Source: Rhodohalobacter mucosus
GTDB lineage: Bacteria > Bacteroidota > Rhodothermia > Balneolales > Balneolaceae
Direction: 5' to 3'
Assembly (NCBI RefSeq): GCF_003150675.1
Contig: NZ_QGGB01000007.1
Location: 310,001 to 374,000, forward strand
DNA: 64,000 bases
Both the position numbers and the translations under genes were made by a program. A model generated the notes under the pieces. The model saw nothing but the letters and a program-made list of their open reading frames with translations, ran no database searches and was not told where the DNA came from. Below, piece by piece: positions 47,028-64,000 of the stretch. Each line of letters opens with the position of its first letter. Position 1 is the stretch's first letter.

Positions 47028-47199
47028 GTGCAGGCAGACGTCAGACGTGAGACGAGAAATTTGATAAATGATTGTCTTACTACTTGGATCTCACTACTCA
47101 ATACTCAATTTCGCCTTTTCACTTCGTGGGAATCGCCTTCGGCTCGGAGCTCTGTTGTTCGGTTGAATATTGCCTTCAGAATGGTTCATTGTTCAGAAT

Positions 47200-47278
47200 A
47201 GATCTGAGATCGTATATCGCCATTCTATCTTCTGAGATCACGCCCTGGCACTGTCCCGGAGGGACAACTGATCGGTAG
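47200..47278. repeat. Degenerate dispersed repeat, copy 1 (AGATCTGAGAxxxTATATCGCC)
   Basis: The segment runs AGATCTGAGA, TATATCGCC, CTGAGATCA, then a GTCCCGGAGGGAC hairpin and TGATCGGTAG. The same order of blocks recurs at 47751-47830 with drift. No gene is supported between 46974 and 48168; short open frames there have no recognisable start or family. Confidence 0.65.
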
Positions 47279-47750
47279 CCCCAATCGGGCGCAAAAGCCG
47301 CCTCCGGCACGGATTGTCGAAAAATCGGGAAGCAGAATCCGGAGGTAAATCAAAGTCATTTGGGAGAAGGTTCATGATGCATGGCGTATGGTTGTACGCT
47401 TCAGGTTACATTCTGCAATCTTCAGGCACCACAAAAACAAGCTGAAGGCTGAAAGCAGATTATTCCTCAAGTCCGCAAGACGGCATATGCGAGCAGGGAA
47501 TTTATTCCCCGGAAATGGGCAAAGGACAAAGAGTGCAGATTTCAGGGCGCGTGATACAAGCAGCAGTCTCCAAGCTTCAGCTAACCGTTTTAAAGTATAG
47601 TATGTTTACGTGGTAAATAGCACTTCTTCAGTTCTTCTGTTCATCCGTTCTTCCGGTCGCCTGTTTCTTTCACTTCTTCGGTTCCTCTGTTTGTCTGTTC
47701 CTCTGATTGTCGGTTGATCAGTTGTGCGGTTGCTCTCACTTTATCGGTAA

Positions 47751-47830
47751 AGATCTGAGAACATATATCGCCAATCTCCAATCTGAGATCATGCTTTTTC
47801 TGTCCCTGGGGGACTGCATGCAGATAATTT
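47751..47830. repeat. Degenerate dispersed repeat, copy 2
   Basis: This repeats the 47200 element: AGATCTGAGA, ATATATCGCCAATCT, CTGAGATCA, then GTCCCTGGGGGAC in the hairpin position. Just upstream (47630-47740) is a pyrimidine-rich stretch of imperfect GTTCTTC/GTTCCTCT repeats like that at 14279. Confidence 0.6.
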
Positions 47831-48086
47831 ATTCCTCTCCATTCGATTTTTTGCATTCCCATTTTTTTCCTTTGGGTCTCATGTTAATTGAGTTATTGGG
47901 TTTAGCTCCAATCAAGCCAAAAAGAAAAGAGTCCCATACACAGTTTCATCTTTTCAAAAACTGATAGGACAACCAAGCGCCCTGCTGATTACAGTCTTGC
48001 ACGAATAATTCTGAATAACTGCACTCATAATAATATCAAATGGAGAACAAGTGGTACACACAAAAAGGAGAGGTTCATTGAGAGGG

Positions 48087-48130
48087 AAGATGCAGAGTCA
48101 TGCATACTGAGGTATGCAGCTCTGCATCTT
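48087..48130. other. 44-base near-perfect hairpin upstream of the dnaB-like gene
   Basis: Outer arms AAGATGCAGAG (48087-48097) and CTCTGCATCTT (48120-48130) are perfectly complementary. Inside, TGCATAC and GTATGCA pair around a TGAG loop, giving an 18-bp stem with a small TCA/G interruption. It is followed by AATTTT, weak for a terminator, and lies 38 bases before the DnaB start. It could be a terminator, a structured leader, or a replication or recombination element of the island. Confidence 0.7.
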
Positions 48131-48168
48131 AATTTTCAGGAACTCTAACAAAGTAATAACTAACTGGA

Positions 48169-49530
48169 ATGACAAAAAAGCCGCATAAATATTCAGCACC
48201 AGCAGAGGCTTCGGATGTAGAAGAAATTATTTTGGCAACCATGCTGATGGACAATGGAATCATTCCGGAAGTTTCTGAACTACTGCAGGAAGAAGATTTT
48301 TATACTGAAAGACACCGGATTTATTTTAAGCAAATCGTCCATCTGCATGACTCCGGACGAGTTGTTGACCTTTTAACCCTTGAAAGCAGGTTAAAGCAAA
48401 TCAATCAGTTTAAAGGGGAAGAAGATTCAGCACGTCTTTCAGATATCTTGATAAGCGCAGGTTCCTCTTCCAACATCAAATATTATTGCCAGATTGTTAA
48501 GGAGAAATCAATTCTTAGAGATCTTTTTAGGTTCGGAACGGAGATATCTGCTCTTTCTGTGAATCCCGCAACTGATGCTTTTGATTTGATTGATCAAACA
48601 GAAAAGAAAGCGTTTGAACTCTCATCTCAAACCTATTCAAGAAAATCGTCAGAAGTTTCTTCAGAATTGGTGAGTGTAATTAAAAAGATCGACGAACTTA
48701 GAAGAAACCCAACGGATATTACGGGGGTTGTATCGAGTCTTGATACTGATAAGCTAACTGGTGGTTGGCAGCCGGGAGAGCTCATTATCATCGCTGCACG
48801 GCCTTCTATGGGGAAAACTGCTTTTATGCTGACATGCGCCAGAAATGCACTGGCAAGAAATGAAAGCAACATAAATGGGGTCGCAATTTTTAGTCTTGAG
48901 ATGAGTAACGAAGCGTTAACCAAGAGACTGTTAACGATGGAAGCCAGGGTTAACGCCCTAGATGCTACCAGAGGAAGGTTGGATGACATTCAAATGAAAT
49001 CTCTCTACCGTGCAGCCGAAAATCTGTCGAGCTTAAAAATCATTTTAGATGACACACCCTCCATCAGTATCAGTGAGCTCCGGTCAAAATGCAGACGGAT
49101 AAAATCCGAACATGATGTTGGTTTGATCGTGGTGGATTACTTACAGTTGATGCAGGCGGGATCTGACGAAGTCTATAACAGGGAACAGGAAATTGCTGCC
49201 ATAAGCAGGGGGTTAAAGTCTATAGCTAAAGAGCTGAATATTCCGGTCATTGTGCTTTCTCAGCTTAGCAGGGCAGTTGAGCAAAGGGGTGGTGATAAAA
49301 GGCCTCAACTAAGTGATTTACGGGAATCCGGTTCTATAGAGCAGGATGCTGACCTGGTAATCTTTTTGTACAGACCGGAATACTACGGCATTACTACGAC
49401 AAGTGAGGGGAGGCCAACGGAAGGACTGGCTGAAGCTATCATTGCAAAGCAACGAAATGGACCTACGGGTACCGTTACCGTGCGTTTTATTAAGGAGTAT
49501 GCGAGGTTTGAAAATTTGATAAATGAATAG
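48169..49530 (+). CDS. dnaB: Replicative DNA helicase, DnaB-type (probably accessory)
   Basis: A 453-residue RecA-fold helicase. The N-terminal DnaB domain is at 12-115 (EASDVEEIILATMLMDNGII). Walker A is AARPSMGKTAFMLTCAR, Walker B is LIVVDYLQLMQ, and the C-terminal motif has VIVLSQLSRAVEQRGGDKRP and SGSIEQDADLVIFLYRPEYY. All catalytic parts are present. It is shorter than chromosomal DnaB of related bacteria as I recall them, is AT-richer than rho, and opens the accessory stretch, so I suspect a second copy carried by the island. Confidence 0.85.
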   Translation: MTKKPHKYSAPAEASDVEEIILATMLMDNGIIPEVSELLQEEDFYTERHRIYFKQIVHLHDSGRVVDLLTLESRLKQINQFKGEEDSARLSDILISAGSSSNIKYYCQIVKEKSILRDLFRFGTEISALSVNPATDAFDLIDQTEKKAFELSSQTYSRKSSEVSSELVSVIKKIDELRRNPTDITGVVSSLDTDKLTGGWQPGELIIIAARPSMGKTAFMLTCARNALARNESNINGVAIFSLEMSNEALTKRLLTMEARVNALDATRGRLDDIQMKSLYRAAENLSSLKIILDDTPSISISELRSKCRRIKSEHDVGLIVVDYLQLMQAGSDEVYNREQEIAAISRGLKSIAKELNIPVIVLSQLSRAVEQRGGDKRPQLSDLRESGSIEQDADLVIFLYRPEYYGITTTSEGRPTEGLAEAIIAKQRNGPTGTVTVRFIKEYARFENLINE

Positions 49531-49615
49531 TCCTTGGAACTTAATTAGTCTTTAAAGCTCTATATCATATAAAAGACATGTCTTAGTTGGGTGCTATATA
49601 TGTTATTATTCTTGA

Positions 49616-50611
49616 TCAGTTGAAAAATACTTCTAAAATTGTCCTCACAAGTATGGGAAGGGCAGAAAAGAATATAACCGATAAAGTTGCAACGATGGAT
49701 TTAAATTTGAAAGGCCATACGTTTAGATTTTCGATTTTCTCTCTAAGTTCCAGCAGGCTTTTCATTCGTTCCAGCTCAATTGTGTCCCCGGAATTCAAAT
49801 CACTGTAAGAATTCGGAAGAAGATCATGGATGTGATCGTCAAGGTCATTGAGCATCTTAATTTTTTCTTCCTTCAATTTTTGAACAACGGGAGCGGGTGT
49901 GATGAATAATATGCTCAGGAGGATCATACCGGAAAAGATACCGTATGAGATCACGATACTGTTTATTGGGATCAATGAAAACAGGACACTGGTGAGGCTT
50001 AGAGCTATGTAAACACTTGCAAGTACAGCCATTTTGCGTGTCATACTCAACAAAAAGTCGGTTTTACCCGAATTGGCCTGCCATAAATCGATATTGATAA
50101 GTGGTGCAATTTTATAAGTTTGTTCTATATACTTCACCAGGCTGTATACTGCGGCGCCTGTCACAAAGTTTACAGCAAACAGGAATACTGCAAGGGTTAA
50201 TTTTAAAGAAAAATGTTCGGGCCAGATATCAAATAAAAATGGAGTCAGTGAGACTGCGGTACCATAAAGCAAACCGGCAATCATCATGCCAGGGAAATGT
50301 AATATTTTTGCGCAGTACTCTTGATACCTTCCAAAAATTTCTTTTTCCGCTTCAAGATCCATCGAACTTGAAAAAAAATTCAGTCCGCGATTAGTAACGT
50401 GTTTTGCCATGGATGAAAGTCCAAAAACAAGAATGACAGTTGAGCCAAACAAAAGCCCCACGAATATGGAATCAACAATGTTTTGGGTAACGAACCACTG
50501 CAATATGAGGTAAATAAGCCCTGTAAGAATTGTTGGGGCTATAAAGGAAACTTTTGCCTTCGGGTTCGTAAAAACTGCCCGATATTTATTCTCCGTGTCC
50601 ATGTTATTCAA
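49616..50611 (-). CDS. Hypothetical seven-TM membrane protein
   Basis: A 331-residue protein with about seven hydrophobic segments, such as PTILTGLIYLILQWFV, IFVGLLFGSTVILVFGL and LSVIFFSALPILVRTILEVF. Between TM6 and TM7 is a charged cytosolic helix region (LKEEKIKMLNDLDDHIHDLL), possibly a coiled coil. No family is recognised. Its start overlaps the end of the hydrolase gene by eight bases, so the two form one operon. Confidence 0.65.
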   Translation of the reverse strand: MNNMDTENKYRAVFTNPKAKVSFIAPTILTGLIYLILQWFVTQNIVDSIFVGLLFGSTVILVFGLSSMAKHVTNRGLNFFSSSMDLEAEKEIFGRYQEYCAKILHFPGMMIAGLLYGTAVSLTPFLFDIWPEHFSLKLTLAVFLFAVNFVTGAAVYSLVKYIEQTYKIAPLINIDLWQANSGKTDFLLSMTRKMAVLASVYIALSLTSVLFSLIPINSIVISYGIFSGMILLSILFITPAPVVQKLKEEKIKMLNDLDDHIHDLLPNSYSDLNSGDTIELERMKSLLELREKIENLNVWPFKFKSIVATLSVIFFSALPILVRTILEVFFN

Positions 50612-51416
50612 GATGGTTGCTTATGCATTCAATCAACTTTAACGGGTTCTCCAGCATCACACTATGACCTGAATCCGGTATTTCTATGATTGGGGCGTCG
50701 TTTAAATGAGCAGACAATTTCTCCAATGTTTTTGGTTTAGCCAAACGGTCATATTGACCTCTCAAGAGTGTAATTTTAGAAGTAGGGTAGTTGATTTCTG
50801 GACTGTAAGGCTCTAGCATGATAGCCAATAGGTTATGGGCGGATTGTGGGTCGACATTCTTTATGGAGTATATCAATGGGTTTGCATCGATTGAGCGATT
50901 CCAGAGTGTTATAACATTTAGATCCTTTACAAAGATCTTTAACACCCGATCCGGTAGGCCACGCAAAGCCCTTAGAATCCAGTTAAGTTGAATGAATTTT
51001 GATAATGCAGGAATGTAATTAGGCAGACCATCTGATGGACAACCCAACAAGAATAGGTGCCGAAACTTAAATTTATGATTTGATAGTATGTGAAGACAAA
51101 GAATGGCACTCAGCGAATCAGCGACAATGACCGGTTTTTGAGTGTGATTGGTTACTTCGTTTATAAAGTGATAAATATACTCAGCATAAGATGTCATGGT
51201 AACATTTTGAGGCTGAATAGGGGATGATTTCCCAAAACCCGGAAGGTCAACCTCAAATGTTGTAAATGCAGATGAAAAATGTTCTGCAATATCTTTCCAA
51301 ACCCGTCCGGAGTGGAGCCAGCCGTGAAGAAAAATCATTGGCGGACCCTGTCCTTTCTCTAAATAGTGAATGGATATGTTTCCAATTTGCTTGGATTTAG
51401 ATAATCTGTCTCTCAA
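50604..51416 (-). CDS. Alpha/beta hydrolase
   Basis: A 270-residue hydrolase. The oxyanion region is MIFLHGWLHSGRVWKDIAEH, the acid lies in LLRGQYDRLAKP and the His in IPDSGHSVMLENP. The nucleophile elbow is VIVADSLSAILCLH, where the usual G-x-S-x-G has become A-D-S-L-S, although the Ser is kept. The change around the elbow may alter activity. It is cotranscribed with the seven-TM protein. Confidence 0.78.
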   Translation of the reverse strand: MRDRLSKSKQIGNISIHYLEKGQGPPMIFLHGWLHSGRVWKDIAEHFSSAFTTFEVDLPGFGKSSPIQPQNVTMTSYAEYIYHFINEVTNHTQKPVIVADSLSAILCLHILSNHKFKFRHLFLLGCPSDGLPNYIPALSKFIQLNWILRALRGLPDRVLKIFVKDLNVITLWNRSIDANPLIYSIKNVDPQSAHNLLAIMLEPYSPEINYPTSKITLLRGQYDRLAKPKTLEKLSAHLNDAPIIEIPDSGHSVMLENPLKLIECISNHLE

Positions 51417-51546
51417 TAGCGAATGATATGAATGCAGGCAACTATTAGTCTAAGATCAAGTATCAGAAAATGAACTATTCACAATTAAAAGGCAAAAGCA
51501 GATCCTGTTAACAAGAAATCGATTCTTGATTCTATGTAATTAAGCT

Positions 51547-52086
51547 ATGACTGAATTGAAAAAACCAAAAATAACTTTTTGTGACAATAATCCGGATGTT
51601 GTGAACTCGTTAAGGGAGGCTTTTTCTGCAGAGTCTAATGTGTATTTTGTCGAAGGAAATATTCTGGACTATGCCCGTGATACAATCTTTTCGCCTGCAA
51701 ACAGCTTAGGTTTTATGGATGGCGGAGTAGATCATGATTATGTTCGATTTTTTGGGATTAAAATACAAAACAGCGTGAAAGAGGTATTCGCTGCCCGGCC
51801 AGAAGGATTTGTGCCCGTTGGGGCAGCCGAATTGGTACTCACAGGGCATGAAACGATTCCGAGACTTATTTTGGCACCCACGATGTTTGAACCTATGGTT
51901 ATACCGTCATATAACATTTTTCGTTCATTCCGTGCAGCTCTGAAAAAATACCGGAAACTAGGTTTAGAAGGGGAGATTTTTACACCCGGATTCGGGACCG
52001 GAATTGGCCACGTCTCAGCAGAGGATGCAGCAAAAATGATGCTTATGGCTTATCAGTCAGTATTTCAACACAATGAAGCTGAGTAA
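51547..52086 (+). CDS. Macro-domain protein (ADP-ribose binding)
   Basis: A 179-residue macro domain, nearly the whole protein. Key parts are VEGNILDY, then FSPANSLGFMDGGVDHDYVR (the ligand-binding Asn and glycine-rich loop), LILAPTMFEP and FTPGFGTGIGHVSAEDAAKM. Macro domains bind or remove ADP-ribose and occur in conflict systems and toxin-antidote pairs. No ADP-ribosyltransferase is adjacent. It lies alone, about 0.36 kb before the AAA ATPase gene. Confidence 0.85.
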   Translation: MTELKKPKITFCDNNPDVVNSLREAFSAESNVYFVEGNILDYARDTIFSPANSLGFMDGGVDHDYVRFFGIKIQNSVKEVFAARPEGFVPVGAAELVLTGHETIPRLILAPTMFEPMVIPSYNIFRSFRAALKKYRKLGLEGEIFTPGFGTGIGHVSAEDAAKMMLMAYQSVFQHNEAE

Positions 52087-52441
52087 AATATGGGTATGCT
52101 CATTTTCCAATCATGATTAATGTTGCATGGCATAGTAATTAATTCTTTATCGAGCGATGTTGGAAATTATTACATCCATATTTTCTCCATTTCAAAATAT
52201 CGCTTCTATCATTTGCGATTTTATAATCACATTTGAACTTTCAGGCATTGGTTATAAAAATTAAAAGACCCTTTGATAGGAGTATATATCTCCAATTGCA
52301 CCAATCTTCGATTTATTTACCGTTGCCCAGAGTCCAACCTTACTATAGAATGAATGGCGGGAAAATTACACACTGTAAGTGATACGCTATGGTATCTTAG
52401 TTCACTCATGAGAGTAAGACATATAGACAAACTAAAAACAA
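52087..52441. other. AT-rich intergenic region, no feature recognised
   Basis: 355 AT-rich bases between the macro-domain and ATPase genes. No gene, tandem repeat or strong palindrome was found. It probably holds the promoter of the ATPase gene, but no reliable promoter element can be named. Confidence 0.4.
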
Positions 52442-53461
52442 ATGAAGGGTCAAACTAGCATGGAAGAATCAAAAAGGAATTTTGTAAAAGACGGTGATAA
52501 ATATATATACGTTGGGGAGATTGAAACCACAAATCTTCCGCCTGGCATTTACGTGCCATTTGTTTCTGACAACGGATTTACACTTGAAGACACTTACCTA
52601 GGGGAAAGGGACAGAAGCTTGTACCGACATGAAGAGAATACAAAGAACGCAAAATTCATAGGTTATCATTTGAGAAATTCGGATAAATTCAAAATCAATA
52701 AAGCTGTAAACATTCAAATACCTAATAAGCAGATTCTTCCTTTAGAAAATTATAGTCCAAATTTTAAGGCAATTTCAGAGAGGATTGAAGTTTTTCTCAA
52801 AAAAATCAATTCAGATAAGACCAATAACCAGTTCAAAGAAGATAAATATCTGATTGCAGGTGAACCTGGAACAGGCAAATCTGAGTTCGTGAAGAGAGAA
52901 TGTAAAAAAATGGTCTTGCTATATGATGCTAGAGTCATTCTGATCCACAATCAAGATGACCTAAGGGCAATGTATAGCGCACATGGTTTCTCTACCATAG
53001 AAAAGAGTTTTAAAGATGAACTTATTGTTTATGTGTTTGAAGAATTTGATTCATTAATTGAAAGTTTTGGTGAAAATATATTCAAGGAATTACTGGATTC
53101 GAAGGTTCGTAATAGAAAGCAAATAACATTTATGATCACGAATTATCCGGACAAGTTACCTGTAGCTATTACTAGAAAAGGCCGGATTGATTACATTGAA
53201 ATGATTGGGCCTAAAAGCTTTTCTATAAACTTTATTTATGACTTATATGAAACGTTGATTGGCGAACAACTACCTAAAAAACATAGAAATAGTGATTGGC
53301 TTGAAGAAGTAAAAAACAGGTTGACACCGGCTGAGATCGTCAATCTAATCAAAGAATCATACTTCTATAACGAAGATATTGACGAGACCTGGAGAAGAAG
53401 AAAAGTGAAAACTGAAGAAGAAGAAATCATTTTAAAACGAAATGGTGTAACAGGCTTTTAA
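52442..53461 (+). CDS. AAA-family ATPase
   Basis: A 339-residue protein. A non-catalytic N-terminal domain (about 1-110) precedes an AAA core: Walker A YLIAGEPGTGKSEFVKREC, Walker B VYVFEEFDSLIES, sensor 1 Asn in ITFMITNYPDKLP, and an Arg finger in TRKGRIDYIEM. Such single-core AAA proteins remodel protein substrates. A second start at 52460 (MEESKRN) is possible. The gene converges on CHAT gene A with 19 bases between the ends, so it is close by but on the other strand. Confidence 0.82.
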   Translation: MKGQTSMEESKRNFVKDGDKYIYVGEIETTNLPPGIYVPFVSDNGFTLEDTYLGERDRSLYRHEENTKNAKFIGYHLRNSDKFKINKAVNIQIPNKQILPLENYSPNFKAISERIEVFLKKINSDKTNNQFKEDKYLIAGEPGTGKSEFVKRECKKMVLLYDARVILIHNQDDLRAMYSAHGFSTIEKSFKDELIVYVFEEFDSLIESFGENIFKELLDSKVRNRKQITFMITNYPDKLPVAITRKGRIDYIEMIGPKSFSINFIYDLYETLIGEQLPKKHRNSDWLEEVKNRLTPAEIVNLIKESYFYNEDIDETWRRRKVKTEEEEIILKRNGVTGF

Positions 53462-53480
53462 TGAATCACGAAACCATTTT

Positions 53481-56195
53481 TCACGATTTCCCATACTCCA
53501 CTGAAGCGTCCCCATGCATTATCCAGCCGGCGGCATCGTCTTGAAACCATGCCGGGTGGGTCTGTTGCAGCCATTGGAGTGTCTGCCCATACGCCTGTCC
53601 GGCGCTTTGGGGCCGGGTGAGCCACCTGCGGTAAAACTGTTCAGCTATGGCCCGGCTCCGGTTGTCATCAATGGGCCACAGGTAGCCAATCACGCAGCGC
53701 GCTCCGGCGGCCAGCAGCCCATAGACCAGTCCCATGACTTCATCGTTCAGGTCCCCCTCCCCGTAGGTCCCCTCACAGCTGCTCAGGTAAACCAGGTCGA
53801 CCCCTGTCAGGTCAAGTTCCCCATCGAGCAGCTGCCGGGCGGAGAGGGTCTGCCCGTCCAGCTGGATGTAGGAGGCTGCCGGGTCGCTGCCGTCGTAGAC
53901 CCCATGGGTAACCAGGTGCAGCACGCTGATAGTTTGGTCTTGAAGCTGCCGCCGCAGCCCCGGGAGCCTCATCTGTCGGCCTTGCAGCAGGATGGCCTCC
54001 GGTACCAGGGCGCTGAGCATGGTACACTCGTCCTCACCATGGTCTAGGCCGCTGTCCAGTGGTGGGCCGGCAATGAGCAAGCGTTTTGCTGAGGGAGTAT
54101 CTTGGGGCTGTTTACCCGACAAATGTACGGCCAGGGAGAGTGCAGGGGTAATCCTGGTTGGTACCTGGCTGGCCAGCGGGCCGGGCTGCGGCTGTCCATC
54201 GTACCAGTGCACCGGCGCGGATTGCAGCGGGAGTACATGGAGCATTCCGTGGGGTTCAATCAGGATCTCGGTGGGCAGTTCTTCTAGCTCGTTTAGCTCG
54301 TCAATCCAGGGCTGCAGGATCCTATCGGCAGTGGTCTGTACCGCCCAGTGGTGCATCTTTTTACGGGCCATGGCAAGAAACCGGCCGCGCTTGGCCCGCA
54401 GTGATAAGTCTTTTGTGGCGCGCACTGCCGGCCAGCTAAAACTGCCCTGGTCCCAGTCGTCGGTGATGTTCAGCTCATCGGCGGTTTTCCACAACTGGTA
54501 CTTGGCCTCTTCAAGCGTCTCATCCCACCAGGGTGGGTCGTCGCTTTGCTTGTCGCCAACAGGCGCATCGAAGTCCTGGTGGGTGAGGGGGCCTGCCTGC
54601 GTAAACGCATCCTGCCGGCTGCGGGTGCCCCACATAAAGGGCTCATCCTGGCTAGAGGTGGAACCACCGCGGGACATGTATTCTTCCAGCCACTGGGACC
54701 GGCTCAGGGCCAGGTAGAGCTGGCGGATGGTATCGTCGGGCAGGGAGAAGGATTTAACAGACAGAGGCAGCTCGCGGTCTTCTTGCACCTGCCACAGGGG
54801 TACCAGATAGACGACCAGCCGGTCGCGGCCGGTAAAGCTGTAGCTGACCAGCAGGGGGCGCCCGCCTAGATAGTTGCTCATCAGTGATCGTTTAAGCGAC
54901 AAGGCCAGCTGCACAGGCTCAGCCACGACAGGGCAGGGCAGGGGGTACTCGCCGGAGCCGGAGTGGCCAAACCTGATTTGTTCGCTCAGGGTTCGCCCTT
55001 TGTGGCAGTGCCAGTGGAAGGCCTGCCGGAAGTCGGCGACCTGTTCGTGCAGCAACACTTTTTGAACCTGCTCGAATAAAATTGCATACGTGTTTTGCAA
55101 GGCTAGCCGCTCACCGGCCGTTGGAAGGCCCGCCCGATGGGTGTTGAACTCCTGCAGGGCCCGTAAAATGGTCTCGTGCGCAAGCTCATACCTACCAATA
55201 ACAAGATATACATGACTTTGCACGCGTAAACTATTCCATTTCACCCCAAAAGCGTTCTGCGGATCCAGTTGCTCAGCCTGCTCAAGGCGCTGCAATGATT
55301 CAGACCATTTTTGAAGACCAGATAGGCAAGAACCGAGATTAAATGCTGCCACTGCAAAATTATTTGTGAAGCAACCCGGATTAATCGATTCAATTTTCTC
55401 ATGAAACTGCAACGCTTGGCGGCATGGATTTTCAGCTTTTATAAACTTGTTTTGTTTAATAAGACACTGCCCAAGATTTAATGTCGATCTTGCTAAACCT
55501 GTGGTATGCTTCCCTGGAGATAAATTCTCTAAGAGTTCGAACAGTCTATTCGCTAGCCTGAAGAATTTTTCAGACTGCTCATTCTTATATTGTCTGATTA
55601 AACTTAAACCCAAATTTAATGAGGTAATTGCCACCATATCATTGAATCTACCTGAGTTGGCAGTTTCAAGTTGCTTATATAGTTTGAGTGCTTTTTTGAA
55701 AGGCTCCTCAGCTAAGGACTCCTTTCTTTGATCCAGAAATATTTTTCCAAAATTAAACGCTGTTTGAGCTAGTTCGAGTGTATATCTCCCTGGATCTCTC
55801 GATTCTAGAACCAGATAAAGCTGATGTGAATAATTGATGACTTCTTGGGCATGTTTTAATTTATCTTGATTTTCAAGACTACTTCCAAGATTATTTGCTG
55901 ATGAAGCCAGAAGTGAGGTATGTCTTCCAGGTTCAATTAGTTCGAGTCGAATGTAGAGTGATAATGCTTTTTTGAAGAGTTTTTCGGCCTGTTTGTAATT
56001 ACTTAGATGTTGATGACAAAGCCCTAGAAGATCAACCACTAAGGCTAACCAATAGGTGTACTCCCCAGGACTCTTTGCTTCAAGAGCCCTGAATAGATGA
56101 CGAGCTTTCATGAGGGGATGCTTGGCCAGGTCCCACTCAGCCTTATTAATATGAATTTTAGCTTGTTGAACTAGCCTTTTAGCCTCTTCATCCAT
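53481..56195 (-). CDS. TPR-CHAT caspase-like protease, copy A
   Basis: A 904-residue protein. Residues about 1-330 are tandem TPRs of the LxxLxPGxYTxxLAxxxxNLG type. A linker follows, and the C-terminal CHAT peptidase has His764 (VLHLVTHGVYDGSDP) and Cys807 (VYLSSCEGTYGEGD), the clan CD catalytic dyad. A structural linker region occupies about 400-700. The TPR part is AT-rich (20 G+C of 60 in 55801-55860) while the CHAT part is GC-rich (37 of 60 in 54001-54060). From LQKWSESLQ onward it is nearly identical to copy B. It is the last gene of the array. Confidence 0.9.
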   Translation of the reverse strand: MDEEAKRLVQQAKIHINKAEWDLAKHPLMKARHLFRALEAKSPGEYTYWLALVVDLLGLCHQHLSNYKQAEKLFKKALSLYIRLELIEPGRHTSLLASSANNLGSSLENQDKLKHAQEVINYSHQLYLVLESRDPGRYTLELAQTAFNFGKIFLDQRKESLAEEPFKKALKLYKQLETANSGRFNDMVAITSLNLGLSLIRQYKNEQSEKFFRLANRLFELLENLSPGKHTTGLARSTLNLGQCLIKQNKFIKAENPCRQALQFHEKIESINPGCFTNNFAVAAFNLGSCLSGLQKWSESLQRLEQAEQLDPQNAFGVKWNSLRVQSHVYLVIGRYELAHETILRALQEFNTHRAGLPTAGERLALQNTYAILFEQVQKVLLHEQVADFRQAFHWHCHKGRTLSEQIRFGHSGSGEYPLPCPVVAEPVQLALSLKRSLMSNYLGGRPLLVSYSFTGRDRLVVYLVPLWQVQEDRELPLSVKSFSLPDDTIRQLYLALSRSQWLEEYMSRGGSTSSQDEPFMWGTRSRQDAFTQAGPLTHQDFDAPVGDKQSDDPPWWDETLEEAKYQLWKTADELNITDDWDQGSFSWPAVRATKDLSLRAKRGRFLAMARKKMHHWAVQTTADRILQPWIDELNELEELPTEILIEPHGMLHVLPLQSAPVHWYDGQPQPGPLASQVPTRITPALSLAVHLSGKQPQDTPSAKRLLIAGPPLDSGLDHGEDECTMLSALVPEAILLQGRQMRLPGLRRQLQDQTISVLHLVTHGVYDGSDPAASYIQLDGQTLSARQLLDGELDLTGVDLVYLSSCEGTYGEGDLNDEVMGLVYGLLAAGARCVIGYLWPIDDNRSRAIAEQFYRRWLTRPQSAGQAYGQTLQWLQQTHPAWFQDDAAGWIMHGDASVEYGKS
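53548..55317. repeat. 1.77-kb near-identical duplication, copy A (CHAT half-gene)
   Basis: This segment matches 61415-63184 at a constant offset of 7867 bases with no difference that I noticed. Identity stops sharply at TTTTTGAAGA (55317) on the TPR side. On the 3' side it fades over about 35 bases (CTTGAAACC against CTTGCAGCC). The edges fall within the last TPR and within the final codons of the gene, so the repeat is a swappable effector half. Confidence 0.93.
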
Positions 56196-56299
56196 TTTGC
56201 TTTCAAATGAATATCTTTGTATCTCGATTCAATATTTATATTGATGAATTAGAAATAATTAAGGGATAATTACTTGAAAAGAATATTGAAACGTAATGG

Positions 56300-57166
56300 C
56301 TATGAGAATAGAAACTCAGGTGTATACCCCTCTTTTATAAGTACAATCAGATCTTCTGATGGAATACGAATTTTGTCATTAACCATTTTGAAAGTTTTTC
56401 CCGAAGCTCCTTCTTTATGGAAGGTTATAGTTAGTGATTTCAGACTTTCATTCTCATCTTTTTTTATGGCAGAGAATTCTATTGATTTATCAACAGTATC
56501 AAAATGCATTTTAATCTCAAAGTCATTATTTGGTAAAATGAAAGATACAGGATAATTTTCTTCTTCGTTTAGTGCCTGCAGTACTATGTTAGTAAACAAA
56601 TTGCTTTGTTCGTCTTTGTTGCCTTCACCAATTTTAGAAATGTTACGCTTTAAAATGGGATTCCAAATACTCAATCCCCTTACGTACATAGCTGAAAGAA
56701 GCGTTACTAAAAGGATAAAAAGCTCATCTTGAGAATCGGCTTCAATTAGTTGATCACGATATTCTGGATCGAGTTCAAGATCAACAGATTCACCCTCATA
56801 TATCGAAGGTGATTTCTTTGCCATGAAGTTCTTCAATGCATCTTGACGCTCCTTTCGAAACTCTTCTCCGTAAAAATGTAGAAGGGTCTTTAGCTTGTTT
56901 TCTGTCAGTGAAATATTATGTTCACTTTGCAAAATACCAGAGAGATGTTCCAAACATGTGTCCCTAAGCTCAGTGGCTGCTTCACTGTTACTCACCTCAA
57001 ATGTGTCGATCAGTTCAGCATTATTCGAACCTTCAAAGTATAACTGATGAAGAAATTCTGTTTGTTGTTCTTCCAAACTGTACAAACTTCTCATTACAGG
57101 CTCTTTCAAATACTTGAGTATTTTATCAGTTTCTTCTATTGACTCGAGTAGATTTTTATTTTCCAT
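56300..57166 (-). CDS. Unknown protein with sigma-region-4-like HTH at the N-terminus
   Basis: A 288-residue protein of no recognised family. Residues about 28-78 (YSLEEQQTEFLHQLYFEGSN, then AELIDTFEVSNSEAATELRD) resemble the helix-turn-helix of sigma region 4. A hydrophobic stretch lies near 150-170 (ELFILLVTLLSAMYVRGLSI), perhaps a membrane helix. The C-terminal 90 residues look beta-rich. It sits between the sigma-like gene (25 bases) and CHAT gene A (105 bases). A regulatory role with the upstream gene is inferred only. Confidence 0.55.
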   Translation of the reverse strand: MENKNLLESIEETDKILKYLKEPVMRSLYSLEEQQTEFLHQLYFEGSNNAELIDTFEVSNSEAATELRDTCLEHLSGILQSEHNISLTENKLKTLLHFYGEEFRKERQDALKNFMAKKSPSIYEGESVDLELDPEYRDQLIEADSQDELFILLVTLLSAMYVRGLSIWNPILKRNISKIGEGNKDEQSNLFTNIVLQALNEEENYPVSFILPNNDFEIKMHFDTVDKSIEFSAIKKDENESLKSLTITFHKEGASGKTFKMVNDKIRIPSEDLIVLIKEGYTPEFLFS

Positions 57167-57190
57167 TTTTTTTTATAATTCTGGTTGAAT

Positions 57191-58114
57191 TTATATACCT
57201 GTTTCCAAAGCAAATACTTTGTAATAGGTTGGATAATTAGTACAAATATCTTCCCACCAATCTGGTTTTGTTTGGTTCAAATGATTCATGATCTCTCCTA
57301 ATTCGTTCAAACGTCTCTTTTTTTGTGCTCTTAAACTATTTTTATTTAAACCGGGGAATATAGTTTCGAACTCATCATAGTAAAATGTTGCAAGTTTTTT
57401 TTCATTCTTTTCTGTAGTGTACCTTTGTTGTTCTACAATTTTTAACTCCAGCCAAGAAAGCGTAATAAACCAATGAGGAACTTCGCTGCTCAGAGAATTT
57501 GATGGAATGTAAAAATCGTCTTGATATTTAATAACATAACTATAAAATCTTAGCACAGATTCTGGTCTGTTCTCAAGAATAGAAATGTCGAGATTATTAA
57601 ATAGGACAATGAATGTATTATCTCCTAATATATTAAGTATATCCTTTTTTGATATATCAATGAGAATGTTGTTCTCTCTGTTTGGTGTATTTAAATCATC
57701 TGGTGGAGCAGTTGATTTTGGAGATTTCATTTTTAAAGTTCTATTCCTGATGACTCGGTATAAATACCCCTCTATATTATCAGTATCATAGTTACTGAGT
57801 CCCTGCCATACGAATTGATGCTTATCTTTTAGATTACTTAGATTTAAGATCAAATTCCCGATCACATCGTGAACTGCAAAATCCGTACCCCGCACACTGT
57901 AGTAAGCTTTCTCGATTGTAGTGAAATTCTTATAAAAAAACAGAGAACCAGTACAAGTTGCTAATTCTTTAAAACCTTTTTTTGATAATAGTATCGTATT
58001 CTGGATATACTCCCTGTTAGTCCAGACAGCATATGCTTCCTTCAATCTACCTTTCTGAGTTAGTTGCTCAATTTTACTTGCTTCTTCAACTATTACATCG
58101 AAATCTTTTGCCAT
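57191..58114 (-). CDS. Unknown protein with sigma-region-2-like segment
   Basis: A 307-residue cytosolic protein. Residues about 100-130 (FVWQGLSNYDTDNIEGYLYR, then VIRNRTLKMK) fit the sigma region 2.3-2.4 pattern that recognises the -10 element. The rest is helical and highly charged, with a basic stretch near the end (KNSLRAQKKRRLNEL). It is much longer than an ECF factor and lacks an evident region 4, which might be supplied by the next gene. It is in the minus-strand array, 80 bases after the DUF4407-PBP gene. Confidence 0.5.
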   Translation of the reverse strand: MAKDFDVIVEEASKIEQLTQKGRLKEAYAVWTNREYIQNTILLSKKGFKELATCTGSLFFYKNFTTIEKAYYSVRGTDFAVHDVIGNLILNLSNLKDKHQFVWQGLSNYDTDNIEGYLYRVIRNRTLKMKSPKSTAPPDDLNTPNRENNILIDISKKDILNILGDNTFIVLFNNLDISILENRPESVLRFYSYVIKYQDDFYIPSNSLSSEVPHWFITLSWLELKIVEQQRYTTEKNEKKLATFYYDEFETIFPGLNKNSLRAQKKRRLNELGEIMNHLNQTKPDWWEDICTNYPTYYKVFALETGI

Positions 58115-58193
58115 AAAGAGAGATTTGCATTTACCTTAAATAAAATCAATTAAATATTTTAGTAAAATATTTAAGATCTTTCAAATTTAAAAT

Positions 58194-61100
58194 TTAGTCA
58201 TTAGAATCTAGACTTGCCAAAAAAGTGAGATTGTCTGTTAGTTCTTGTAAAGATTCGGACTTAAGGATTTCATCCATGTATCTAGCTATAAAGGAACCTG
58301 TAATGTTTGCATATTCAGGTTGAATTGATCGAAGAGGTTGCCCGCTACGGCTAAAAACCCCAGCCAGGATGGAAATTTCACCCGGAGTTGTAATAAATAA
58401 AGAAGCTGATCTATTTTGTTGAGTTGTGCCTGTTTTTCCAGCTATCATATCTCCTGACCAACCAATGGATTGAACTGTCGGGTGAAGTACTCCGGACGGA
58501 TGTTCTACACTCTGAGACATTCCAAATACGATGTCTCTGGCTATATCTTCTTCCCACAACTTTTTCATCTTGGTCTCCTGATTAAGCTTCATCTGAAGTT
58601 GATTTGGGATGCTGCCTAAAGGCGGTACGAATGCATGTAGTACATGGAATAGATCGATGGGTCGTACTGCTTTTGGGCCCAAAAATGAGGCAGGGTTATC
58701 ATCAAAATAACCCCTGAGAACCGTATCTGAAAGCTTGTTTCTCAATTCAGATGAAACCGGGCTAACTGCGATCTCTGCGACTGGCACATTTAAGGATGAA
58801 CTTAGTGCTTCCAACACTGTCACATCTTTTATGTCTTGGGATAGCACTTGTGAATTTTCTACGTGCCAATTTCCATTTCTTTCTGTCGCGAAGATCCGGG
58901 GTTGTACGGGAACTTTTGTATAGAGTGTATTGCCCTGATTTAAAAATTCGGAGTATATCAGGGGCTTAAGTACCGACCCCGGTGCCCATACAGAAACTTG
59001 TGTAGCTTGGTTTGTGCCAAAAGGGTCAACGGAACCAATCATGGCGATGAGCTTTTGATTGTGTGATATGAGTATGAAGCCATCTGCGTCCGTGACACCT
59101 GTAATTGACATAACATCATCTGTCATTCCGAGAAGGGTATTCCTGGCTATGGAGCTTATGTCTGCATCCAATGTCGTTTGAATAATCTTTCTATCGCCAA
59201 ACATTTGTGTCAGGTAAATATCAGCTTGTCTCATCGTCATACGCTGTTCAAATGCCCCATTGCTTACATGTATAGAAGGAATTTGAGCTGCTAATTGATT
59301 TATTTCAAAATCAGTGAAGATTCCGCTATCGGCAAGTCGGTTTACTACTGAGTTGTATCTTTGTTCAAATTTATCAGAGTTATTAATATAGGTGTTAGGG
59401 GCAGGAAGAATAGCGACCAGGGCAACCATCTGCTTAGTTGTTAGTTGGTTTAGTGATCGATTGAAGTATTCATAAGCTGCCTGGTGGAAGCCTTTCAGAT
59501 CTCGACCCAGAAAGACGCTGTATGCGTAGAACTCTATCAATTCTTCATCTGTGTATTTTTTTCGAAGACCTGTAGCTATCAGGAGTTCTTTGACCTTACG
59601 AAGCAAGTTCCGCTCATAGTTGTCTAGAATAACGCCCCTTGCAAGCTGCTGAGTGATACCGCTGGTTCCTTTGGGTATTCGTTTGTGAAATACTCGGTCG
59701 AACATCTCTCGAAGTGTTCGAAAGTAATCGATGACAAAAACCCGTTTGAATCTATGATTTTCGGTGTAAATAAGTATTTCACTAAATGTCGCAGGCAGTC
59801 CATTTGGCGGTGTACCGGCATAAATAAGATCCCCTTCAGCCGAGCGGATTTCAGGCTTTGATTGGTAAAGTGCCAACAGAGAGTCGGCGTTCATGAAATT
59901 TTCTGCCGCTTTTTCTCCAATTAAAAGTTGTAATGCAGGTTTGGGTACTGTCAACATTGCAGCTCCCATCATTTGTTGAACAGGAGCAATTGGTGTTAAA
60001 AGTTCTGCTAAAATGAAAAGAGTAATCCCTATGACAAGAATTGTTATTGGATTTAAAGGGATTTGACCATTTTGGTGGGCTTTAGACCGGGGTTTTCTTT
60101 TATGCCCGTTTTTATTCGTGGCAGCCTTATTCAATGAATTTGTAAATGCACTTGTTGAAGAATTCTTTTCCTTAAACAATCTATATGTATCTCTTGCATC
60201 GTCGATGCTAAATTTGGAAGAATCCTTATTATTAATAGACGTGTTTACGATGTCTTCATGGTCGGCAATAGCTGCCTTCATTTCATTTTTTATGATTTTT
60301 CGTTTTGCTTTTTTTTCAAATCTGTCTTTTTCATTATTTAGTCTGATACTCCTGCTGTAATAACTTTCATTAAGCGCTTTCATGAAAAGTGGACTGATTT
60401 CAAATAGGAGAAAGAGTATTTTAAGTCCCCAACCCACACGCCAAAGAATTTCATCTTCCTGTTTTAGAGACTCTAAAACCTTTATGTTTTTTGCTAATCC
60501 CTGGTTTACATCTTCTTTTTTTTCACGAAATGCTTGACTGATTTCAGCCAGCACTTCTCTCTCTTTTGCCTCTTGATTAACAAGTTCAATTTGCAATTCA
60601 TCTAGTTTAATCTGTACTGACTCAAGTCGTTTTTCGGCAGCATCGTATAAATCCCCTTTTCCTGGAATTCCGCTACCCCATCCTGCAACAATTTCTCCTG
60701 TTTCTTCAGCTTCCATACGGATTCTCTGGCGGTCTCTATCTTCTCTGTAGATGGATCGTATTTCTATAAGTTCTTCAATACGATCCTGGATGCGAGGAAG
60801 TCCGTATCGAATGGATAGACTTTCTCTGAGCTCTTCATTATAGATTCTTGTCTCTTCTTGAATGGCTTCATGGATGGGTTCTCGGTTGATTCTTAGCTCC
60901 AAAGGTATAGCGATAATAATGGCAAGTACCATTGCCAGTATAAGGCGTGGCAGAAGTGTCCATTTATTGAATTGACTTACAATAAAGCGGTCTAATGAAA
61001 AAACAAACGCAGAAAATAACAGACCTAGTGGAAGTGCAGAGTACACGCTTTCTGTAATGATGTAGGCTGCATATGTGCCAGAAATAAGGGCAAAGAAAGC

Positions 61101-61244
61101 GGTTAGAAAAACAAATATGCCAAGCTGCAACTGAATATTTCTTGAGGATTCGTAATGATCAGACGGCAGTTTTTCTAGTGCGGACTGATCAGTCATGCTG
61201 CACCATAGGAAAAAATCAGTAATGGGATTCATATCATCACTCAT
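58194..61244 (-). CDS. DUF4407 domain fused to a class A penicillin-binding protein (GT51 + transpeptidase)
   Basis: A 1016-residue fusion. Residues 1-295 are DUF4407: three membrane segments, a ~130-residue coiled coil, and a fourth segment. A basic linker and TM5 (about 400-420) follow. The GT51 domain has Glu495 in TENHRF, GTSGITQQLARG and RKVKELLIA. The transpeptidase has all three motifs: Ser757-VLK, Ser817-L-Asn819 and Lys937-TGTT. Topology works: the coil and both enzyme domains are periplasmic. The first GT motif lacks the usual HxG. Housekeeping PBP1 proteins have no DUF4407. It lies between the two CHAT genes. Confidence 0.88.
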   Translation of the reverse strand: MSDDMNPITDFFLWCSMTDQSALEKLPSDHYESSRNIQLQLGIFVFLTAFFALISGTYAAYIITESVYSALPLGLLFSAFVFSLDRFIVSQFNKWTLLPRLILAMVLAIIIAIPLELRINREPIHEAIQEETRIYNEELRESLSIRYGLPRIQDRIEELIEIRSIYREDRDRQRIRMEAEETGEIVAGWGSGIPGKGDLYDAAEKRLESVQIKLDELQIELVNQEAKEREVLAEISQAFREKKEDVNQGLAKNIKVLESLKQEDEILWRVGWGLKILFLLFEISPLFMKALNESYYSRSIRLNNEKDRFEKKAKRKIIKNEMKAAIADHEDIVNTSINNKDSSKFSIDDARDTYRLFKEKNSSTSAFTNSLNKAATNKNGHKRKPRSKAHQNGQIPLNPITILVIGITLFILAELLTPIAPVQQMMGAAMLTVPKPALQLLIGEKAAENFMNADSLLALYQSKPEIRSAEGDLIYAGTPPNGLPATFSEILIYTENHRFKRVFVIDYFRTLREMFDRVFHKRIPKGTSGITQQLARGVILDNYERNLLRKVKELLIATGLRKKYTDEELIEFYAYSVFLGRDLKGFHQAAYEYFNRSLNQLTTKQMVALVAILPAPNTYINNSDKFEQRYNSVVNRLADSGIFTDFEINQLAAQIPSIHVSNGAFEQRMTMRQADIYLTQMFGDRKIIQTTLDADISSIARNTLLGMTDDVMSITGVTDADGFILISHNQKLIAMIGSVDPFGTNQATQVSVWAPGSVLKPLIYSEFLNQGNTLYTKVPVQPRIFATERNGNWHVENSQVLSQDIKDVTVLEALSSSLNVPVAEIAVSPVSSELRNKLSDTVLRGYFDDNPASFLGPKAVRPIDLFHVLHAFVPPLGSIPNQLQMKLNQETKMKKLWEEDIARDIVFGMSQSVEHPSGVLHPTVQSIGWSGDMIAGKTGTTQQNRSASLFITTPGEISILAGVFSRSGQPLRSIQPEYANITGSFIARYMDEILKSESLQELTDNLTFLASLDSND

Positions 61245-61335
61245 TTGAGTTTGTCTATCAGTTGATATTCTATTATCAACTCCTTACCCACATAAGTGAT
61301 TAATCAATGGATACCGAATCAGTTGACCAGCATAA

Positions 61336-64000
61336 TTATCTATTATCATTGCTTTGGGCCCACCTCACACGAATGTCCCCATGCAGTATCCAGCCGGCGG
61401 CATCGTCTTGCAGCCATGCCGGGTGGGTCTGTTGCAGCCATTGGAGTGTCTGCCCATACGCCTGTCCGGCGCTTTGGGGCCGGGTGAGCCACCTGCGGTA
61501 AAACTGTTCAGCTATGGCCCGGCTCCGGTTGTCATCAATGGGCCACAGGTAGCCAATCACGCAGCGCGCTCCGGCGGCCAGCAGCCCATAGACCAGTCCC
61601 ATGACTTCATCGTTCAGGTCCCCCTCCCCGTAGGTCCCCTCACAGCTGCTCAGGTAAACCAGGTCGACCCCTGTCAGGTCAAGTTCCCCATCGAGCAGCT
61701 GCCGGGCGGAGAGGGTCTGCCCGTCCAGCTGGATGTAGGAGGCTGCCGGGTCGCTGCCGTCGTAGACCCCATGGGTAACCAGGTGCAGCACGCTGATAGT
61801 TTGGTCTTGAAGCTGCCGCCGCAGCCCCGGGAGCCTCATCTGTCGGCCTTGCAGCAGGATGGCCTCCGGTACCAGGGCGCTGAGCATGGTACACTCGTCC
61901 TCACCATGGTCTAGGCCGCTGTCCAGTGGTGGGCCGGCAATGAGCAAGCGTTTTGCTGAGGGAGTATCTTGGGGCTGTTTACCCGACAAATGTACGGCCA
62001 GGGAGAGTGCAGGGGTAATCCTGGTTGGTACCTGGCTGGCCAGCGGGCCGGGCTGCGGCTGTCCATCGTACCAGTGCACCGGCGCGGATTGCAGCGGGAG
62101 TACATGGAGCATTCCGTGGGGTTCAATCAGGATCTCGGTGGGCAGTTCTTCTAGCTCGTTTAGCTCGTCAATCCAGGGCTGCAGGATCCTATCGGCAGTG
62201 GTCTGTACCGCCCAGTGGTGCATCTTTTTACGGGCCATGGCAAGAAACCGGCCGCGCTTGGCCCGCAGTGATAAGTCTTTTGTGGCGCGCACTGCCGGCC
62301 AGCTAAAACTGCCCTGGTCCCAGTCGTCGGTGATGTTCAGCTCATCGGCGGTTTTCCACAACTGGTACTTGGCCTCTTCAAGCGTCTCATCCCACCAGGG
62401 TGGGTCGTCGCTTTGCTTGTCGCCAACAGGCGCATCGAAGTCCTGGTGGGTGAGGGGGCCTGCCTGCGTAAACGCATCCTGCCGGCTGCGGGTGCCCCAC
62501 ATAAAGGGCTCATCCTGGCTAGAGGTGGAACCACCGCGGGACATGTATTCTTCCAGCCACTGGGACCGGCTCAGGGCCAGGTAGAGCTGGCGGATGGTAT
62601 CGTCGGGCAGGGAGAAGGATTTAACAGACAGAGGCAGCTCGCGGTCTTCTTGCACCTGCCACAGGGGTACCAGATAGACGACCAGCCGGTCGCGGCCGGT
62701 AAAGCTGTAGCTGACCAGCAGGGGGCGCCCGCCTAGATAGTTGCTCATCAGTGATCGTTTAAGCGACAAGGCCAGCTGCACAGGCTCAGCCACGACAGGG
62801 CAGGGCAGGGGGTACTCGCCGGAGCCGGAGTGGCCAAACCTGATTTGTTCGCTCAGGGTTCGCCCTTTGTGGCAGTGCCAGTGGAAGGCCTGCCGGAAGT
62901 CGGCGACCTGTTCGTGCAGCAACACTTTTTGAACCTGCTCGAATAAAATTGCATACGTGTTTTGCAAGGCTAGCCGCTCACCGGCCGTTGGAAGGCCCGC
63001 CCGATGGGTGTTGAACTCCTGCAGGGCCCGTAAAATGGTCTCGTGCGCAAGCTCATACCTACCAATAACAAGATATACATGACTTTGCACGCGTAAACTA
63101 TTCCATTTCACCCCAAAAGCGTTCTGCGGATCCAGTTGCTCAGCCTGCTCAAGGCGCTGCAATGATTCAGACCATTTTTGAAGATTGGCAAGACACAAAC
63201 CAAGCAAAAACGATGCCTTGGACAGTTGAGTGGTATATTGATGCGGGTTCAACGTTTCGAGCTGCTGGTAAAGCTTTTGGGCGCGACGGCAGGGCTCTTC
63301 TGCCTGGCCCCACTTGTTCTGATATACAAGGCACGCTCCTAAATAATCGGCCGCATTGGCAAGTTCGGTAGTGTATTGTCCCGATTTTGAAGATTCGAGC
63401 TGCTCATAAAGCTCTACAGCCTGGATGAGGGGCTCTTCGGCTTGATCCCAATTTTGCCGATTGCCAAGGCACACTCCTAGATTGGAAGCTGAACAGGCTA
63501 GATCGGTGGTATATTGACTAGGCATTAAAGATTCAAGTTTTTTGAAGAGTAGATATGCTTTTAAATCATAACTTTCTGATTCTATTTGTTTATTCAGTTT
63601 ACTAAGATAAACTCCAAGTCTACCGTATGTATGAGCCAGTTTGCTAACAAATTCTCCAGGGTGTTTAAGTTCGAGTTTTTTATATAAAGTAGACGCCTTT
63701 AAAGTATAGATTACTGCCTTCTTATAAGTGCTTTTATAACCTAGATTCATGCCTAGACCGAAGTATGAATCAGCTAATTTATCGGTATACTTTCCATGAT
63801 GCACCAACTCTAACTTTTCATACATATTACAAGCTATTCGATGGTAGGTTATAGCTTCCTCATAGTTATAAAGATCAGTATTACACGAACCCAAATTGTA
63901 TGCGGTTCTTGCCAAATCAGAGGAAAATTGACCTGGCAAGGTCACCTCCAATTTTTTATAAAGTTTAAATGAAACAAGATTAAATCTGTTGGATTCTTTA
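61336..64000 (-). CDS. TPR-CHAT caspase-like protease, copy B (5' end beyond window)
   Basis: The frame stays open to base 64000, so the start lies outside; a TTG at 63951 inside the TPR region is not a convincing start. At least six TPRs (LESLMPSQYTTDLACSASNL, LESSKSGQYTTELANAADYL) precede the same CHAT half as copy A, with His in LHLVTHGVYD and Cys in LSSCEGTYGE. The TPR half shares only the repeat pattern with copy A. The last residues differ (IRVRWAQSNDNR). It is the first array gene visible here. Confidence 0.9.
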   Translation of the reverse strand, partial: KESNRFNLVSFKLYKKLEVTLPGQFSSDLARTAYNLGSCNTDLYNYEEAITYHRIACNMYEKLELVHHGKYTDKLADSYFGLGMNLGYKSTYKKAVIYTLKASTLYKKLELKHPGEFVSKLAHTYGRLGVYLSKLNKQIESESYDLKAYLLFKKLESLMPSQYTTDLACSASNLGVCLGNRQNWDQAEEPLIQAVELYEQLESSKSGQYTTELANAADYLGACLVYQNKWGQAEEPCRRAQKLYQQLETLNPHQYTTQLSKASFLLGLCLANLQKWSESLQRLEQAEQLDPQNAFGVKWNSLRVQSHVYLVIGRYELAHETILRALQEFNTHRAGLPTAGERLALQNTYAILFEQVQKVLLHEQVADFRQAFHWHCHKGRTLSEQIRFGHSGSGEYPLPCPVVAEPVQLALSLKRSLMSNYLGGRPLLVSYSFTGRDRLVVYLVPLWQVQEDRELPLSVKSFSLPDDTIRQLYLALSRSQWLEEYMSRGGSTSSQDEPFMWGTRSRQDAFTQAGPLTHQDFDAPVGDKQSDDPPWWDETLEEAKYQLWKTADELNITDDWDQGSFSWPAVRATKDLSLRAKRGRFLAMARKKMHHWAVQTTADRILQPWIDELNELEELPTEILIEPHGMLHVLPLQSAPVHWYDGQPQPGPLASQVPTRITPALSLAVHLSGKQPQDTPSAKRLLIAGPPLDSGLDHGEDECTMLSALVPEAILLQGRQMRLPGLRRQLQDQTISVLHLVTHGVYDGSDPAASYIQLDGQTLSARQLLDGELDLTGVDLVYLSSCEGTYGEGDLNDEVMGLVYGLLAAGARCVIGYLWPIDDNRSRAIAEQFYRRWLTRPQSAGQAYGQTLQWLQQTHPAWLQDDAAGWILHGDIRVRWAQSNDNR
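61415..63184. repeat. 1.77-kb near-identical duplication, copy B (CHAT half-gene)
   Basis: The counterpart of 53548-55317, in the same orientation 7867 bases away. Recombination between the two direct copies would delete the three genes between them and join the copy-B TPR half to the copy-A tail. The segment is GC-richer than its flanks. Confidence 0.93.

Follow-up and report, generated by a model that had tools for sequence, protein, structure and literature searches.

Genes at the locus

We analyzed a 64,000-nucleotide stretch of Rhodohalobacter mucosus DNA (positions 310,001 to 374,000 of contig NZ_QGGB01000007.1, hereafter the window), in which a gene at 58194..61244 (−) joins a DUF4407 membrane module to a class A penicillin-binding protein (PBP). 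The gene starts with ATG and runs as a single uninterrupted frame of 1016 amino acids (aa). The fusion is genuine. It represents a new domain architecture, rare in the sets searched and sound in its predicted topology, and lies within an acquired signalling-protease operon. This operon extends beyond the window, the contig continuing for 24.9 kb past the window end, and its genes succeed each other on one strand (−) in the following order: a 227/235 aa pair, VWA, PP2C, kinase, TPR-CHAT protease 1 (CHAT1), the fusion, two orphan genes, and TPR-CHAT protease 2 (CHAT2). The nine junctions measure 19, 302, 25, 23, −10, 91, 79, 24, and 104 bp, eight of them thus falling between −10 and +104 bp; those of 91 and 79 bp flank the fusion, whose neighbours are on the same strand. 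An initial annotation of the window had correctly placed the fusion between two CHAT proteases; on the CHAT2 side, however, a further two genes (56300-57166 and 57191-58114) intervene.

Domains of the fusion protein

Pfam matches for DUF4407, GT51, and transpeptidase are all over cut-off, in agreement with the proposal of the initial annotation that DUF4407 is fused to a complete class A PBP. The domain search suggested there for the N-terminal part yields PF14362 at residues 32–292 (E 1.5e-42; 146.3 bits, cut-off 31.3), the alignment spanning positions 8–284 of 297, that is, nearly the whole model. The GT51 glycosyltransferase domain (residues 481–637; 59334..59804 (−)) is recognized by Pfam (Transgly, PF00912, E 5.5e-33; 114.3 bits, cut-off 27), by alignment with family PBPs, and by matches to solved structures of PBP1a, PBP1b, and monofunctional transferases (best E 4.2e-20). 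The transpeptidase domain (about residues 700–985, limits set by eye; 58290..59147 (−)) is divergent, with PF00905 matching best over 751–828 (E 6e-6; 26.1 bits, cut-off 22.1), and is also supported by alignment and by the NCBIfam model PBP_1a_fam, which aligns with residues 482–946 (E 3.4e-48) at 164.8 bits, far below its cut-off of 508.75.

Residues 440–1016 were aligned with eight class A PBPs of the same family (nine sequences), to which the PBP half is 22–26% identical. The GT51 motifs ENHRF (495), GTSGITQQLAR (526), RKVKE (549), and ELIEFY (568) contain the invariant columns E495, S528, Q533, R536, K550, E553, and E568. In the transpeptidase domain, SVLK (757–760), SLN (817–819), and KTGT (937; KTG 937–939) provide the invariant columns S757/K760, S817/N819, and K937–T940, so that the three motifs are indeed intact, as had been claimed. 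By sequence, the C-terminal half is therefore a class A PBP, with both domains over the Pfam cut-off and the catalytic residues kept.

The DUF4407 part (residues 1–360; 60165..61244 (−)), delimited by Pfam, alignments, hydropathy, and an AlphaFold2 (AF2) model, is predicted to comprise four transmembrane (TM) helices, periplasmic helical hairpins (121–243), and cytosolic helices (295–375), their sidedness being deduced. Of the structure predictions that the initial annotation had recommended, the one covering the coil proved informative: the AF2 model of residues 1–430, built with a DUF4407 alignment, has a mean pLDDT (predicted local distance difference test) of 83.8 and shows, besides TM-type helices, hairpin helices at 121–146, 149–187, and 198–243, a further helix at 265–291, predicted cytosolic helices at 295–341 and 347–375, a low-confidence segment at 378–394, and a helix at 399–416. 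Hydropathy agrees with these helices, and both approaches make the coil that separates TM helices 3 and 4 about 150 residues long, where about 130 had been estimated. Next comes a probably disordered linker rich in K, R, S, N, and T (residues about 376–398; 60051..60119 (−); pLDDT below 50 at 378–394), followed by a fifth TM helix (residues 402–420; 59985..60041 (−)) at the place where the PBP anchor usually sits, which is supported by hydropathy and by the AF2 helix 399–416, of low confidence at its end. Helix counting would put the linker in the cytosol and both the hairpin and the PBP enzyme in the periplasm, and it is because of this predicted placement of the PBP that we consider the fusion topologically sound.

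We rejected the possibility that the DUF4407 match reflects mere coiled-coil similarity, invariant residues of the TM region being present: in 36 aligned sequences, fusion included, G42, T48, Y58, D85, R86, P114, E282, P285, K289, and Y296, among others, are invariant. We know of no function for DUF4407. Solved structures include no sequence relative of its profile at E ≤ 0.01, Foldseek returned no match at E ≤ 0.001, and the rows of a VIA-align search (Z 9.7–10.8) are under the level stated for helical models.

Distribution of the fusion

The R. mucosus genome has one DUF4407 match and three GT51 genes, of which the two besides the fusion are carried by frames 783 and 774 aa long. Among 92 genomes of the family, own included, 91 match the fusion somewhere and only R. 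mucosus matches it in full; the matches listed for the others fall within residues 425–825. With two ordinary GT51 genes besides it and no occurrence in 91 other family genomes, the fusion is therefore not the housekeeping PBP of the lineage, a possibility that the initial annotation had named beforehand as one that would refute its reading and that we reject.

Profile searches with PF14362 covered three overlapping genome sets: 244 genomes of the class (E ≤ 0.001 was reached in 27 and the cut-off passed in two, the second being a 164 aa frame), 394 of the phylum Bacteroidota (145 and 120), and 278 of the order to which genome G434 belongs (128 and 114), R. mucosus being counted in the first two. 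Among the matches listed, these sets contain no second DUF4407-PBP fusion, and the longest other over-cut-off frame is 543 aa. BLAST identified 82 DUF4407 open reading frames (ORFs) of 315–453 aa in loci L118-L203, devoid of PBP, which corroborates the statement that DUF4407 normally stands alone; the DUF4407 proteins of G327 and Algoriphagus limi (L193) share 96% identity. Phyla beyond Bacteroidota were covered by a profile scan of a genome-contig collection and by single-sequence, plasmid, and phage/viral scans. No stretch extended past residue 363 in the contig collection (best 80 of 552 confirmed stretches), single-sequence scans for relatives were negative, and so were PBP-profile scans of viral sequences. 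The fusion is matched by 419 plasmid and 52 phage records, none over 80% of its length; Lak phages of Prevotella match residues 6–294 only, and residues 1–300 have no plasmid match. A limited literature search found no earlier description of a DUF4407-class A PBP fusion, consistent with the initial annotation, which knew of none.

Some long frames with a DUF4407-like match under cut-off (in L036, L037, L044, L061, L111, and L112) were examined as candidate fusions and rejected, as they have no PBP similarity; two of them are proteins of class relatives (L111:2478-5546, 1022 aa; L112:8421-11210, 929 aa). Several Bacteroidota genomes carry a full DUF4407 gene in tandem with a weaker or partial one (e.g., L098:8019-10743, L099:8251-10481). 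The profile search also added four ORFs of 87 aa on viral contigs (L118, L119, L202, L203), where the DUF4407 match covers about 860 bases yet ORFs reach only 87 aa under translation table 11. A recoded stop, as used by Lak phages, would explain these short ORFs.

CHAT proteases, TerY-P-like triad, and orphan genes

Only the C-terminal part of CHAT1 (61336..64000 (−)) lies in the window; the whole protein has 1226 aa and starts at L065:13016 (window-equivalent 65016). CHAT2 has 904 aa (53481..56195 (−)). Their CHAT domains (E 1.2e-35 and 6.5e-36, respectively) both keep the His and Cys of the THG and SSCE motifs (H1082/C1125 and H764/C807), which we take to be the catalytic dyad. CHAT proteins in general are common in the family, 72 of its 89 genomes searched having weak matches to CHAT1, mostly to its CHAT domain and at 24–41% identity. 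The two genes share 1810 bp close to their 3′ ends (window 53508-55317 and 61375-63184) at 99.8% identity, and the genome has no third copy. The repeat has a G+C content of 0.61 in CHAT2, whose AT-rich N-terminal (TPR) half is at 0.39. Because the catalytic halves are nearly identical in DNA whereas the TPR stretches of the two proteins share just 38% identity, gene conversion or cassette exchange probably keeps the catalytic halves alike and leaves the sensing halves different.

The VWA, PP2C, and Ser/Thr kinase genes upstream of CHAT1 are adjacent and thus in TerY-P-like triad order; like the start of CHAT1, they lie outside the window covered by the initial annotation. They encode a VWA protein of 255 aa carrying the motif DTSSS (VWA_2, E 4.6e-6), a PP2C of 284 aa (PP2C_2, E 2.3e-39), and a kinase of 422 aa (Pkinase, E 3.8e-15). 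The VWA protein matches 2309 plasmid records, and in the five plasmid regions examined VWA is followed by PP2C (annotated as such in four, though not in Calothrix) and then by a large third gene, named as a kinase in one. The VWA protein is uncommon among relatives of R. mucosus: own genome included, it was found in 3 of 238 genomes of the class and 18 of 385 of the phylum. Compared with each other alone, the 235 and 227 aa proteins upstream of VWA reach 21% over 149 aa (E 1e-4) and seem to be distant paralogues, and a PcfJ-like gene (L065:18324-19541) stands at the upstream operon border.

The orphan gene next to the fusion (307 aa; 57191..58114 (−)) has a very weak likeness to sigma-70 region 2 (Pfam E 0.11; 12.8 bits against 24), and the second (288 aa; 56300..57166 (−)) a very weak ECF-sigma-like N-terminal stretch at residues 21–78 (NCBIfam E 0.065; 12.9 bits against 226), so that both score below the sigma factor cut-offs. 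Neither has a plasmid match, and among 244 class genomes the 307 aa protein matches only its own. Promoter-like sites (44, against 40.5 in shuffled sequences, standard deviation 5.7) and terminator-like sites (10 against 15.4) are not in excess over chance.

Acquired DNA between rho and an MBL-fold gene

In R. mucosus, about 24.5 kb separate rho (window 45429-46973) from an MBL-fold gene (window-equivalent 71538). Ten same-genus regions were compared, of which two (L271 and L272) were too short and were excluded; in six of the remaining eight, the two genes are neighbours, 10–362 bp apart by tblastn ends. At the same site, genome G042 carries an insert of 11.5 kb; the three of its proteins that were compared do not match the module. 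In G063 there is no rho within 17 kb. The site (window about 47000-64000 to about L065:19500) thus appears to be an insertion hotspot, with other inserts in G042 and probably in G063. From C7:358001, ten of twelve 2 kb steps have a G+C content of 0.32–0.46 and two of 0.51, against 0.48–0.53 in the flanks; the halves of the fusion gene are at 0.38 and 0.42. The operon hence sits in an acquired, mostly AT-rich insert. The insert also contains a DnaB-type replicative helicase gene (window 48169-49530) and, adjoining the operon, genes for a macro-domain protein (51547-52086) and an AAA ATPase (52442-53461).

A peptidoglycan synthase under cytosolic control?

We propose, with a probability of about 0.4, that the operon is an acquired stress or defence module with a peptidoglycan synthase as its output at the membrane, regulated from the cytosolic side by way of DUF4407 and the probably disordered linker. 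The four TM helices of DUF4407 and its periplasmic hairpin would form a regulatory or docking module, which the cytosolic helical tail and the basic, Ser/Thr-rich linker would join to the fifth TM helix, anchoring GT51 and transpeptidase in the periplasm. The triad and the TPR domains would sense cytosolic stress, from phage or otherwise, and phosphorylation and/or CHAT cleavage in the tail or linker would then switch the DUF4407-PBP protein, changing wall synthesis toward emergency synthesis or repair, or toward growth arrest. Topology and DUF4407 fold are predicted in this scheme; catalysis, who acts on whom, and the PBP as output rather than input are what we infer. What favours a controlled synthase is that GT51 and transpeptidase alike keep their catalytic residues, and that the probably disordered linker is predicted to lie in the cytosol, where kinase and proteases could reach it. 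An anti-phage role is reported for TerY-P triads (PMC11090510, PMC7699616), and CHAT, VWA, and kinase domains are described in other conflict systems as well (PMC10907252), which is not decisive here. A bolder version, which we regard as distinctly doubtful, is an alarm system driven by the caspase-like CHAT proteases and the kinase, with the synthase as its membrane arm. DUF4407 would restrain the PBP until cleavage or phosphorylation of the linker in the cytosol switches wall synthesis, which would make the system the cell-wall equivalent of CHAT-activated gasdermins.

Several observations weigh against the proposal of a controlled synthase. Its main weakness is that the fusion was found in one genome only. 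Loci L098-L203 (some of them short) contain no PBP gene or module relative next to DUF4407, and thus no split ancestor supports the pairing. In the enzyme half, the first GT51 motif reads EN instead of ED and the following HxG is absent; NCBIfam scores are far under cut-offs; and the AF2 single-sequence model, the other prediction recommended at the outset, was uninformative (mean pLDDT 33.2). Flank charges back the predicted topology weakly: flanks predicted to be inner carry +1 to +2, yet the charge is −1 ahead of the first TM helix and +1 past the fifth. As to the triad, no PADLOC-DB family corresponds to VWA or PP2C, the presence of TerY-P models in that library being unchecked; the kinase matches only other kinase-containing families (mad6, PD-T4-6, MkoA, PDC-M71A); and its C-terminus, where the kinase of such a triad would have a zinc ribbon or OB-fold, has just an HxxxCPWC cluster at 322–329, with no Pfam domain after the kinase.

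The main rival, unlikely as we judge it, is that the PBP and DUF4407 read the state of the wall or the presence of beta-lactams and signal inward, CHAT then cutting an inhibitor and releasing one or both sigma-like proteins. Experimental precedent is better here than for a synthase output: the PBP PbpP of Bacillus thuringiensis, encoded beside sigP-rsiP, is reported to sense beta-lactams and to be required for the anti-sigma factor to be cleaved (PMC8092216), and the TPR-CHAT protein Csx29 as cutting a sigma inhibitor (PMC10028731). Moreover, in 8 of 81 loci a standalone DUF4407 gene lies 16–197 bp downstream, on the same strand, of a pair encoding BlaI-like and M56 (BlaR1-like) proteins (L152, L158, L173, L175, L190, L194, L196, L197); Pfam, applied to four of the sixteen pair proteins, identified one BlaI (E 4.7e-29) and three M56 (E 4e-16 to 5e-12). 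This neighbourhood hints at a wall or beta-lactam role for DUF4407, but it was encountered only in Flavobacteriaceae-type records, and the sigma likeness of both orphans is under any threshold. A pure ligand sensor is also disfavoured because the GT51 catalytic residues are kept, which such a sensor would not need.

That the fusion occurs in a single genome, at a site that also takes other inserts, would suit an acquired alternative PBP, for instance for beta-lactam tolerance, caught by chance in a defence-type operon; its position inside the operon, on the same strand and with short gaps on either side, and its fusion to a module absent from every other PBP examined make such a passenger improbable. 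Bacterial caspase-like proteases act with gasdermins, and CHAT-cleaved gasdermins offer a pore-forming parallel for a suicide effector, in which CHAT or kinase would, upon infection, unleash the synthase and disordered wall synthesis would stop growth or kill; the linker is predicted to be placed for cytosolic cleavage. Killing through a PBP would, however, need growth and act slowly, and a limited, narrow literature search found no precedent, which leaves this explanation more improbable still. Finally, the single occurrence raises the question of an assembly artefact joining two genes, which we hold to be very improbable given one open frame without stop, a predicted topology consistent across the junction, a G+C content in both halves that fits the insert and not its flanks, and the low identity to the eight family PBPs.

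Comparison with known systems

The fusion ties DUF4407 to peptidoglycan synthesis, and the BlaI/M56 neighbours of some standalone DUF4407 genes point independently to the wall. It also hints that the cell wall may be sensed or controlled by a caspase-like alarm system. With the parts joined in one protein, direct tests of linker cleavage, of phosphorylation, and of synthase activity become possible. If the alarm-system reading were true, DUF4407 in general would be a control module for envelope enzymes.

The protein resembles class A PBPs such as PBP1A and PBP1B in the order of GT51 and transpeptidase, the single TM helix just before GT51, and the catalytic residues, and differs from them by DUF4407 and its four extra TM helices in front, its divergence, and its variant motif 1. 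With DUF4407 proteins it shares a near full-length PF14362 match, the invariant residues, and a confident four-TM and hairpin model, whereas the others, in frames up to 543 aa among the matches listed, are without PBP. The three adjacent genes upstream follow the order seen at plasmid relatives of the VWA, with the VWA motif kept, and depart from TerY-P triads in the lack of a PADLOC match for VWA and PP2C, an uncertain zinc ribbon, and the link to CHAT and PBP. Type III-E Craspase (Csx29, Csx30, CASP-sigma) is similar in having a TPR-CHAT protease beside possible sigma-like genes; the two R. mucosus CHAT proteins score 30.3 and 29.9 bits with the Csx29 model, against a cut-off of 300, and Pfam matches of the ten operon proteins include no Cas family. 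PbpP-SigP-RsiP is comparable in that a PBP gene stands beside regulator genes, and differs by a demonstrated sigma/anti-sigma pair, the available text of that source mentioning no DUF4407 or CHAT part (PMC8092216).

FtsI is a class B PBP. Within TerY-P or TPR-CHAT defence systems, a limited literature search found no wall synthase described, the nearest case being HetF-FtsI of Anabaena: HetF is described as binding FtsI, an example of a CHAT protein acting by way of a PBP (PMC8406250). The likeness is that of a CHAT protein working with a PBP, although in Anabaena the two proteins are separate, the PBP is of class B, and cell division is concerned. Taken together, the R. mucosus system reads as one of TerY-P/CHAT type to which a wall enzyme would have been added.

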